64,000 nt of DNA. Source: Acinetobacter kyonggiensis. Lineage in GTDB: Bacteria; Pseudomonadota; Gammaproteobacteria; Pseudomonadales; Moraxellaceae. The notes under the pieces were generated by a model. The model did no database searches, was not told the DNA's origin, and saw nothing but the letters and a program-made list of their open reading frames with translations. The position numbers were made by a program, and so were the translations under genes. Shown piece after piece: positions 23,256-62,523 of the stretch (position 1 is the first letter of the stretch; each line of letters begins with the position of its first letter). The DNA is taken from contig NZ_FNPK01000001.1 in assembly GCF_900107285.1 (NCBI RefSeq), positions 310,001 to 374,000 of the forward strand, written 5' to 3'.

Positions 23256-24141
23256 TAGTCAAATCATTATAAAACCAATACAATGGTGCAATGAGTTATT
23301 CAGAACATTTTAGACGTAAAATTTTAGCTAAGCTTGAGGAAGGTTATTCTATTCGAGCGGTATCTGCACAATTTGAAATTAATAAAAATACCATTGTTGA
23401 ATGGAAGAAACGTATAGAGATTAAAAAAACTCGTGTACGTAAACCTTCTAAAATTAACGATGATGCTTTACGTGAAGATGTTGAAAAGTATCCTGATGCT
23501 TATCAATATGAACGTGCTGCACGTTTTAATTGTGGTGTTTCATCTATTGGTGCTGCATTAAAGCGCTTAAATATTACAGTTAAAAAAAGACGTTAAGCCA
23601 TCCTAAAGCAGATACAAAGCTTAGGGATAAATTTATTCAGCAAGTGAATGAATTAGAAAAAAACCATCCGATTATTTACCTGGATGAAAGTGGTTTTAAG
23701 TCACATGATTACAGACCTCATGGCTACTCACGAAAAGGAGTACCCTGTCTAGGGCAATATAATTGGCAATTAAAGAATCAGACCAATGCCATTGGAGCAA
23801 TCCATAAAGGGTATTTATTTTCAGTCGGTTTATTTGACTGCAAAATCAATTCAGATGTTTTTCATTTTTGGATTGAGCAATTCCTCATACCAGCATTACC
23901 AGAAAATAGTGTAGTGGTTATGGATAATGCAGCATTTCATAAAAGAGCAGATATTCAGGAGTTATTGGAACAACAAGGGCATAAAATTCTTTGGCTTCCT
24001 GCATACAGCCCTGATTTAAATCCTATAGAACAGATGTGGGCATGGGTTAAACGTAAGCGTAAAGAATGGTTGATCGACTCAGTCGATGAGTTATTTCGAG
24101 TTTTTTTCGAATCTTGTATGAATAATAAAGTAGTTTGACTA
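23256..24141 (+). mobile_element. IS630-family insertion sequence, 886 bp, with TA target duplication
   Basis: The ends are TAGTCAAA (23256-23263) and TTTGACTA (24134-24141), perfect 8-bp inverted tips with weaker similarity further in. TA flanks both sides (23254-23255, 24142-24143), the IS630/Tc1-mariner target duplication. The intact host reading frame after removal of IS plus TA confirms the boundaries. It carries one transposase split into two frames. Confidence 0.92.
23291..24138 (+). CDS. IS630-family transposase, two overlapping frames (likely -1 frameshift)
   Basis: Frame 1 (23291-23596) encodes an N-terminal helix-turn-helix, SIRAVSAQFEINKNTIVEWK. Frame 2 (open before 23644, ending 24138) encodes the DDE catalytic part: D in YLDESGF, D in VVMDNAAFH, E in SPDLNPIEQMW. 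The frames are joined in -1 at a run of seven A followed by G (23582-23589). Reading on gives KTLSHPKADTKLRDKF, the usual IS630 linker, for a fused protein of about 280 residues. Several IS630 members use such frameshifting; a plain inactivating indel cannot be excluded. Confidence 0.85.
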
Positions 24142-25039: not shown

Positions 25040-25157
25040 AATCTGTGATCATCTATTTTTTTATAGCTTTATATCTTAATCTTTTTTTGATAAAAATCGA
25101 TGAAAAAACGGACAGATGAGACACATTCTGTCGTTGTAAATAAAAAGCTAAGGAAAT

Positions 25158-25528
25158 AAAAAACTCTTCCGAAGAAGTAATACTGATCAGTTAAGAATTT
25201 ATTATTTTTTATTTTAAATTCATAATGTTACTCGATACGCAGAAACGTCATTCGCAATTGTTCGAGGCAAGACTACTTTGAAAAAGTAAGGGTTCTGCGA
25301 TTTATTAATCAATAAAAGGTGTTTGACGAGTTTTGCGGTGAGGCGCAATGCGCCGCAAGATGCCTTTCTTGCGAAGCTCTGCTTCTCATTTGGGCTTATC
25401 CAAAGTAATAGATGAGCTACAAGCGTTGGATTTAATAAATATAAGACTCCGTTGTGAATAACTAAAAAGTTAAGGGGTTAATTGTAAACCCCCTTAACTA
25501 ATGAGCATTATTCCGAAGAAGAGTTTTT
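25158..25528 (-). terminator. Intrinsic terminator of pbpG split by the MITE-like insertion
   Basis: Left remnant AAAAAACTCTTCCGAAGAAG (25158-25177) and right remnant TTCCGAAGAAGAGTTTTT (25511-25528). Removing the element and one TTCCGAAGAAG copy restores a perfect 11-bp stem AAAAACTCTTC/GAAGAGTTTTT with loop CGAA, 20 bases past the pbpG stop. Each remnant retains only a short stem. Confidence 0.8.
25178..25510 (+). mobile_element. MITE-like non-coding element, copy A (333 bp)
   Basis: The terminal inverted repeats are TAATACTGATCAGTTAAG and CTTAACTAATGAGCATTA (18 bp, four mismatches). The exact 11-bp sequence TTCCGAAGAAG flanks both sides (25167-25177, 25511-25521). It has no credible reading frame. 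Inside are the block GACGAGTTTTGCGGTGAGGC (25325-25344), a hairpin GGCGC-aat-GCGCC nested in TTGC/GCAA (25333-25358), a hairpin GAAGC/GCTTC (25373-25385) and a terminal AGTTAAGGGG hairpin. It is homologous end-to-end to 62154-62523. It accounts for most of the 508-bp gap 25040-25547. Confidence 0.85.
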
Positions 25529-25547
25529 GCAAGGATTAAAAACCGTG

Positions 25548-26600
25548 TTAAATACGTTTTGGTAACTGGCTTGTCCAATTCATTAAACGCATAGCATCTT
25601 CAGTACGCGCTTGAGAGCTGTCCGCACCCAATAGCACCACAACTGCTGGACGATTATTCAAAGTGGTGTGCATCACCACACAGCGCCCTGCTTCATTGAT
25701 ATAACCTGTTTTTGAAATATTGATATTCCAACCCCCATTACGCACCAAGGCATTGGTATTATTCGATTTCAATACACGATGACCCAAATTAAAATCATAG
25801 CTTGCCGTGGTTGAGAACTGACGAATTAACCCATATTGATAAGCAGCACTGACCAAAATACCTAAATCACGTGCAGAAGCAATATTACGTGGATCAAGCC
25901 CAGTCGATTCATAATAATGAGCGGACGTCATGCCTAAAGATTTTGCTTTGCTATTCATTGCTGAAACAAAAGCAGCTCGGCCACCGGGGTAAGTACGAGC
26001 TAAAGCAGCGGCAGCCGGGTTTTCCGACTTCATTAAAGCCAATAATAAAACTTCCGCACGATTCATGGAGTCGCCAGCACGTAAAGTCGAGCTTGAGTTT
26101 TTACCACCTGCTCCTGCAAAATCAATTGCTTGCAAAGTAATGTCTTCAGACATATTCAGTCTGGCATCCGCAATGACCACCGCAGTCATCAATTTCGTGA
26201 TGGATGCAATCGGCAATGCGGCATTGGTATTTTTACTGTATAGCACTTCACCTGTTTGAGAATCCATGACCAATGCTGCACGTGCATTGACCGCTGGTTG
26301 ATTGCTATAACGCGAATTATTTAAAATTTGTACAGTTTTAGGCGCAGCATGCGATACGACAGCATTCGAACTGCGCACAGAGGTGGTGATTTTAGTTGAA
26401 CCTTGTGGCGTTACTTCATCGTTTAATGATGAAACATCACCATTAAGGAGTTGTTTAGCATCTTCAGAGGACCAATTTAAAGCGGCTTGACCTGTCCCCC
26501 CAGATGCATCCATGATGAGTTCTGCAAAGGTGCTTGAACTCATGCTAAGTAAGATAGACATCCCTAGCACATGCATTAAAGATTTGTTTGAATTTTTCAC
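25548..26600 (-). CDS. pbpG: D-alanyl-D-alanine endopeptidase, PBP7/8 type
   Basis: Low-molecular-mass penicillin-binding protein that cuts D-Ala-mDAP crosslinks. A signal peptide ends ...SSSTFA (about residue 27). The active-site triad is SITK (SxxK, about residue 133), SEN (SxN) and KTG (about 300). The ~100-residue segment before the domain is low-complexity Ser/Asn-rich. Its 350 residues fit PbpG. It diverges from gacA; its terminator has been disrupted by the inserted element. Confidence 0.92.
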   Translation of the reverse strand: MKNSNKSLMHVLGMSILLSMSSSTFAELIMDASGGTGQAALNWSSEDAKQLLNGDVSSLNDEVTPQGSTKITTSVRSSNAVVSHAAPKTVQILNNSRYSNQPAVNARAALVMDSQTGEVLYSKNTNAALPIASITKLMTAVVIADARLNMSEDITLQAIDFAGAGGKNSSSTLRAGDSMNRAEVLLLALMKSENPAAAALARTYPGGRAAFVSAMNSKAKSLGMTSAHYYESTGLDPRNIASARDLGILVSAAYQYGLIRQFSTTASYDFNLGHRVLKSNNTNALVRNGGWNINISKTGYINEAGRCVVMHTTLNNRPAVVVLLGADSSQARTEDAMRLMNWTSQLPKRI

Positions 26601-62153: not shown

Positions 62154-62523
62154 TAATGCGAGTCAGTTAAGGGGTTTTACAATTAACTCCTTAGCTTTTT
62201 AGCTTTTTAGCTTTTTAGCTTTTTAGCTAATCACTACGGAGTCTTATATTTTTAAATCAAATACTTGGAGCTCATTTATTACTTTGGATAAGCCCAAATG
62301 AGAAGCCTCAAAATATATTTTGAGTTCGCAAGAAAGGCATCTTGCGGCGCAGTGCGCCTCACCGCAAAACTCGTCAAATACTTTTTATTGATCAAGTAAT
62401 CGCAGAAACCTTACTTTTCAAAGTAGTCTTGCCTCGAACAGTTGCGAATGACATTTCCACGTATCTAATAACATCATGAATTTAAAATAAAAAAACTAAT
62501 CCACTTCTTAACTAATCGCATTA
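62154..62523 (-). mobile_element. MITE-like non-coding element, copy B (370 bp)
   Basis: It is homologous to 25178-25510 in opposite orientation. Ends: TAATGCGAGTCAGTTAAG (62154) and CTTAACTAATCGCATTA (ending 62523), an inverted pair with few mismatches. The conserved core complementary to GACGAGTTTTGCGGTGAGGC is at 62356-62375 and the GGCGC/GCGCC hairpin at 62346-62358. It is longer than copy A because of a longer hairpin (62307-62324) and a tandem AGCTTTTT array (62193-62228). It fills most of the 443-bp gap 62116-62558. No reading frame is supported. Confidence 0.85.
62193..62228 (+). repeat. Tandem AGCTTTTT array, 4.5 copies, inside copy B
   Basis: Four exact 8-bp units plus AGCT lie near one end of the element. 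Copy A has the equivalent of a single unit (CTAAAAAGT) at the same place. Confidence 0.9.

Follow-up and report, generated by a model that had tools for sequence, protein, structure and literature searches.

The 333-bp element downstream of the pbpG-like gene in our window, a 64,000-nucleotide stretch of the Acinetobacter kyonggiensis genome, is a miniature inverted-repeat element (MITE) of the IS4 subgroup, and its parent is an insertion sequence (IS) of that subgroup. Very probably, this MITE is or was moved in trans, enters the hairpins of terminators and replaces them. Terminators as the systematic target, the hairpins at the element's own ends and an interior module shared with other elements are new beyond the sequence-only reading of this locus. 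The features of the pbpG copy are listed by window position.

25178..25510, plus strand: MITE copy, 333 bp, with two terminal inverted repeats (TIRs) and an 11-bp duplication
25167..25177, no strand: left copy of the target-site duplication, TTCCGAAGAAG, read from the sequence
25511..25521, no strand: right copy of the target-site duplication, TTCCGAAGAAG, exact, 11 bp
25178..25195, plus strand: left TIR, TAATACTGATCAGTTAAG, with 4 differences from the family consensus TAATGCCAGTCAGTTAAG
25493..25510, minus strand: right TIR, TAATGCTCATTAGTTAAG in the minus-strand reading, with 4 differences from the consensus
25159..25169, no strand: left arm of the pbpG terminator, AAAAACTCTTC, its last 3 bases inside the duplication
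25518..25528, no strand: right arm of the pbpG terminator, GAAGAGTTTTT, its first 4 bases inside the duplication
25548..26600, minus strand: pbpG-like gene with a Peptidase_S11 match, the gene name being that of the sequence-only reading

Joining the flanks with a single copy of the duplication gives AAAAACTCTTC-CGAA-GAAGAGTTTTT, whose arms form a perfect stem of 11 bp with A- and T-runs; this confirms the proposal that excision of the element and one duplication copy restores such a stem. The inserted target is the terminator of the pbpG-like gene, read on the minus strand. The proposed 333-bp length with an exact 11-bp duplication also held, as did the 18-bp imperfect TIRs, which agree at 15/18 positions (TAATACTGATCAGTTAAG against TAATGCTCATTAGTTAAG, the reverse complement). 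In line with the claim that the element encodes no protein, the list of open reading frames holds no protein-coding gene of at least 80 aa inside 25178-25510. Since each TIR carries 4 mismatches to the consensus, the window copy may be an older member of the family. The product of the pbpG-like gene has PRK11669 (D-alanyl-D-alanine endopeptidase) as its top NCBIfam match, at 258.7 bits and thus below the cut-off of 294. No sigma-70-like promoter was found in 25100-25620. To the left of the element region, an IS630-type transposase lies in two frames at 23291-24138 (HTH_Tnp_IS630, DDE_3).

Empty sites in relatives, on which the sequence-only reading had staked its case, are present. The 3' end of pbpG was matched in 118/119 genus genomes, A. 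kyonggiensis included, and the best 29 of the 117 others were compared. In all 29 the element is absent: no TIR is found up to 420 bp from the pbpG stop, and within 130 bp of that stop there is a terminator-like site, marginally so in one (L215). Two of the 29 (L209 and L213) have a nearly identical AAAACTCTTC...GAAGAGTTTT hairpin that is uninterrupted.

A blastn search of the A. kyonggiensis genome with the element returned 50 matching pieces. Among the 40 loci fetched, 35 are two-ended copies when as many as 7 mismatches are allowed in each TIR, and this bears out the expectation of many copies with the same termini; the other 5 have the interior alone. The further expectation that homologues would carry the proposed termini stood for the element, with its ends in 35/40, and failed for its interior, which lacks them in these 5 loci and in many loci elsewhere. 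The two-ended copies are 299-403 bp in size. Their duplications are exact in 8 copies, have one mismatch in 12, two in 8 and three or four in 4, so that 20/35 have at most one mismatch, with lengths of 10-14 bp. The script detected no duplication in the 3 remaining copies, of which L034 nonetheless shows a shifted one of 11 bp. The median pairwise identity among copies is 83.6% and the highest value 97.7%, which suggests copies of differing age. The window holds a second copy, with 7 mismatches in its left TIR and a short TTTTTAGC tandem array at about 62191-62229.

62154..62523, minus strand: second window copy, about 370 bp, flanked by the terminator halves AAAAAAGCGAGC... and ...TTCGCTTTTTTT

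Elsewhere, the matches listed cover about the whole element in at least 14 of 98 other genus genomes. A blastn search of 72,556 plasmid records with the element gave no match.

The parent was found through these termini. The consensus TAATGCCAGTCAGTTAAG is exact at both ends of 18 of the 30 fetched IS4-type loci, which come from 11 other genomes; the IS with such ends are 1389-1393 bp long and have clean duplications of 10-12 bp. The remaining loci comprise two with one variant end (G093), two cut by contig ends, four with CAATGCTGTTCACTTAAG ends (G080, G128) and four without recognisable ends. The transposase of one copy (L063) scores above the cut-offs for Nterm_IS4, DDE_Tnp_1 and NCBIfam IS4_1 and is 36% identical to InsG of E. 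coli IS4. As outlined in the subgroup description of the 2008 review, the IS4 subgroup is marked by an -AATR end pattern, 10-13 bp direct repeats, a YREK motif and an N-terminal IS4 domain (De Palmenaer 2008, PMC2266710). The L063 transposase, the one protein compared, reads YIQRWEIEMCYREIK, which by eye fits the YREK spacing given in that description (PMC2266710). Like the subgroup, the MITE has the ends of the autonomous IS and, in the window, a duplication of 11 bp that falls within 10-13; unlike its members, it is without a transposase.

Matches between A. kyonggiensis and the IS are confined to roughly the first 38 bases of the latter and lie nearly all at MITE left ends, with up to 97% identity between these ends and the left 38 bp of the IS. 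Therefore, the MITE has retained the left end of the IS and little else. PF13006 (Nterm_IS4) is present in 18/149 genus genomes and has no match in the A. kyonggiensis draft of 73 contigs, where the ends alone of the IS find matches; an IS4 copy could be missing from the draft, as a multicopy IS may be lost in assembly. In another genome (G146), the IS copies L065 and L085 coexist with a MITE, L150, that sits in a terminator with an exact 10-bp duplication. The movement in trans that had been deduced from the lack of a gene is thus supported by the copies, the duplications, the empty sites and a parent with identical termini, from which we infer transposition itself. The TAATGCCAGTCAGTTAAG ends would be the substrate of a DDE transposase of the IS4 type that is provided in trans.

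Two further observations concern the IS loci. In two IS4 copies (L064, L066), the flanks do not match and look like the halves of two different terminators, as would result from recombination between IS copies. The divergent group with CAATGCTGTTCACTTAAG ends (L058, L075, L076 and L087) is also sited in terminators, and its member L075 is a 741-bp copy.

To score the target, we reconstructed each site and looked for hairpins whose centre is no more than 2 bp from the midpoint of the duplication. Seven of the 30 IS loci were left out (L061, with no left flank; L062 and L078, cut; L072-L074 and L086, with no recognisable ends). All 23 scorable IS copies have a hairpin scoring at least 22 centred on the duplication; the 23 are not wholly independent, with four from the divergent group and with L065 apparently at the same site as L079. 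For the A. kyonggiensis MITE, 25/35 copies reach a hairpin score of 18, against 1.08% of 26,210 flank positions, which include coding DNA, where terminators are rarer; a score of at least 20 together with an A/T run of at least 5 is found in 24/35 copies against at most 1 of the 26,210 positions. The other 10 of the 35 copies score below 18. A separate scan found 74 terminator-like sites per 233,941 bases, and chance would therefore stay near the percent level even for intergenic DNA alone. Other genomes yielded 15 candidate element pairs: 5 have a strong hairpin, and several of the remaining 10 have misplaced boundaries or decayed duplications; L147, with an exact 10-bp duplication, lies at a site that is not a terminator. 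In the mechanism we propose, insertion into the loop of an intrinsic terminator would duplicate about 10-14 bp, that is, the loop and part of the stem.

The preference seems to extend, less strictly, to E. coli IS4, which resembles the MITE in having the same 18 bases TAATGCCAGTCAGTTAAG at one end, with an inward hairpin there. We examined 13 E. coli loci, 12 from the 60 matches listed of 2,739 records plus K-12. They reduce to 7 distinct sites: 4 resemble terminators (beside bamD, between crr and pdxK, after adhE and beside glgP), 2 fall within genes, and that of K-12 is weak. Terminator preference looks like a property of the IS4 subgroup that E. coli IS4 shows loosely and the IS of Acinetobacter strictly, targeting being tighter in the Acinetobacter elements. 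An older paper is said to have placed IS4 in the pheST attenuator. The main text of PMC2266710 contains the word “terminator” 0 times, and its passages on specificity give the subgroup's preference only as conserved target arms. Among the matches listed in the open literature, which excludes subscription journals and ISfinder, we found no report of terminators as an IS4-subgroup target or of this MITE family.

What the transposase recognises at these sites can be refined. The chances seem about even that the transposase responds not to the hairpin as such and instead to an A-run arm paired with a T-run arm some 20 bp away, as DNA that is bent or melts easily; in Acinetobacter, such sites would mostly be bidirectional terminators. 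Both an A-run and a T-run of at least 4 are present in 21/23 IS targets, and the in-gene sites of E. coli IS4 keep A-rich and T-rich stretches despite their weak hairpins. Against this, the stem sequences are diverse and yet pair in all 23 scored IS copies, and the share of two-sided sites does not significantly exceed that among terminators at large, either for the IS (21/23 vs 53/74, p = 0.09) or for the MITE (20/25, p = 0.60).

The reading in which the MITE replaces the terminator that it enters draws on the element's own ends. When the first 70 bases of each MITE end are read inward, a terminator-like hairpin is found at the left end of 33/35 copies and at the right end of 34/35. Outward-reading hairpins occur in 0 and 1 of 35, the interior stretch gives 4 and 1 of 35, and random flank segments give 79/700. 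The left hairpin is that of the IS itself (AATGCCAGTCA...TGACTGGCATT followed by a T-run); 445/490 of its cells are paired, and its two-sided changes number 9, compared with a mean of 4.6 after shuffling (11/500 shuffles as high). At the other IS end, 4 of the 11 distinct end pairs displayed have a terminator-like inward hairpin, whose sequence is unlike that of the MITE, so the right-end hairpin of the MITE may be its own addition. In the window copy, the right-end hairpin is the only terminator-like site in 25100-25620 downstream of pbpG.

25464..25494, minus strand: right-end inward hairpin, AGGGGGTTTACAATTAACCCCTT then AACTTTTT, predicted to be terminator-like and facing pbpG

Judged by stem, short loop and T-run, the end hairpins are putative intrinsic terminators. 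Transcription of pbpG would now stop within the element, and the insertion probably replaces the terminator that it split. With T-tailed hairpins reading inward from the left and the right end, transcription arriving from either side would be stopped. Insertions would thereby be nearly neutral, at little cost to the host, and this would explain the build-up of dozens of copies. Most mobile elements harm their landing site, and this MITE family appears to restore terminator function there. Our results also offer a testable answer to the question of what IS4-subgroup transposases seek.

Parts of this picture were already known from the papers cited here, as far as their relevant sections go: IS-mobilised MITEs (PMC6382973), the ends of the IS4 subgroup (PMC2266710) and palindrome-seeking IS (PMC1525189). 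MITEAba12 is described as an Acinetobacter MITE thought to be mobilised in trans by a resident IS, 111-114 bp long, with 16-bp ISAba12-group ends (GGCTTTGTTGCA-like) and 9-bp duplications (Adams and Brown 2019, PMC6382973). Our element is not MITEAba12, as termini, length, duplication and parent all differ. The same paper, in the part that names Acinetobacter plasmid MITEs, lists ones of 439 bp and 502 bp (PMC6382973); these bear on our element through the search of plasmid records only. ISRm22, an IS4-family element, has nine copies in REPs in an account of IS that target REP palindromes (PMC1525189, 2006). As described in that account, it resembles the MITE in inserting into palindromic extragenic sequence and differs in that its target is a repeat family, not terminators, with no mention in the pertinent section of a replaced function. 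As for retroelements, group IIC introns insert beside terminator hairpins, without TIRs or duplications of this type.

The MITE also carries an interior module that reaches beyond the family. In many genomes, the stretch from element position 57 to about 276 has matches that lack IS4 ends, and 67/99 genomes, A. kyonggiensis included, have some match to the element.

25234..25453, plus strand: core module with covarying stem-loops, common to elements with other ends

Aligned with one another, 41 cores that lack REP inserts give support for two structures, a 15-pair stem and a further long hairpin. Pairing in this alignment amounts to 95.3% of cells against 89.3% in shuffled alignments and at most 51.9% in slid controls, with 72 two-sided cells against 25.5 shuffled, many of the copies coming from one genome and the cells not being independent events. 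Two of the five covariation measures are weak: pairs with a two-sided change number 9 against 6.8 (22/500 shuffles as high), and further pair types 28 against 26.0 (50/500 as high). Helix 2 is only 86.6% paired. A covariance model of the core, run with at most 19 candidates scored per genome, detected it in 127/149 genus genomes, A. kyonggiensis included, and in 44/149 drawn family genomes from 7/16 genera. A putative pseudoknot between CGCRGAAA and TTTCTGCG, assessed by eye, was rejected, as the variation in its 5' strand has no matching counterpart.

Rfam gave nothing meaningful for the element and core loci. The core is not a C4 antisense RNA, since RF01695 has no match to the scanned core loci; in 10 genomes, the C4 matches and the core-model matches listed lie by eye in different places. 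Rfam places C4 RNA at 20 positions in G046, at 15 in G064 and at 0-6 in the eight other genomes searched. The Group 1 or C4-like sRNAs of A. baumannii are multicopy and structured, and their loop motif CUACAUU, as it appears in the source's motif description, resembles the core's GGACTACATT (PMC5320573, 2016).

Some cores lie inside elements with other ends. In a search of 100 loci, for which the null end-pair scores have a 95% point of 10 and a maximum of 16, cores within ACTGATGTTACGCA ends scored 17 (L096), 14 (L092), 13 (L135) and 11 (L115), and one core perhaps within AACCTGAGTTCGAT ends scored 11 (L134). At L088, L092, L096, L135 and L115, ACTGATGTTACGCA inverted repeats flank the cores, next to short AT-rich stretches that by eye resemble 5-6 bp duplications.

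We classified 64 core loci by neighbouring genes, called as open frames only and including some IS4-type MITEs of other genomes; none of the 53 with a gene call on both sides lies between divergent genes. This distribution would suit random insertion in which selection spares only insertions into terminators, intergenic 3' ends being safe places. We consider that explanation improbable, since the centring of hairpins within 2 bp in 23/23 IS copies seems tighter than selection for 3' space would produce. The hairpins, the many copies, the lack of a gene and the occurrence of the core without IS4 ends could also describe an ordinary extragenic repeat (ERIC/BOX-like) or a host-derived hairpin, which the duplications, the empty sites and the termini common to transposase-bearing IS make very unlikely.

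Within the MITE as an IS4-subgroup derivative, we treat the core as captured cargo or an older element. It is tempting to speculate further, as a tentative reading that we hold to be rather doubtful, that the core represents a novel class of structured RNAs, useful to the element or the cell, which travels across Moraxellaceae as the cargo of several miniature elements unrelated to each other (with IS4-type, ACTGATGTTACGCA and perhaps AACCTGAGTTCGAT ends); the element would then be a mobile “terminator cassette” that homes in on terminators and substitutes for them with both of its ends, the RNA module being insulated in between. A bias of core orientation towards the mRNA sense was not found between codirectional gene pairs (19 same-sense, 16 opposite). 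The wobble asymmetry of 97 G-T against 33 A-C cells, most of both supplied by a few columns, hints that the core acts as RNA on the plus strand, and we place no weight on it. Some Acinetobacter 3' ends and intergenic RNAs may be pieces of mobile elements.

A smaller repeat is nested in the core of the window copy and missing from many cores.

25339..25388, no strand: REP-like inverted pair, TGAG-stem-loop-CGCAAG and CTTGCG-stem-loop-CTCA, identified by eye and nested in the core

The TGAG-stem-loop-CGCAAG unit is also seen in L024, L036, L009, L100 and L106, often as an inverted pair and at varying positions within the core. These units suggest nested REP/REPIN insertions.
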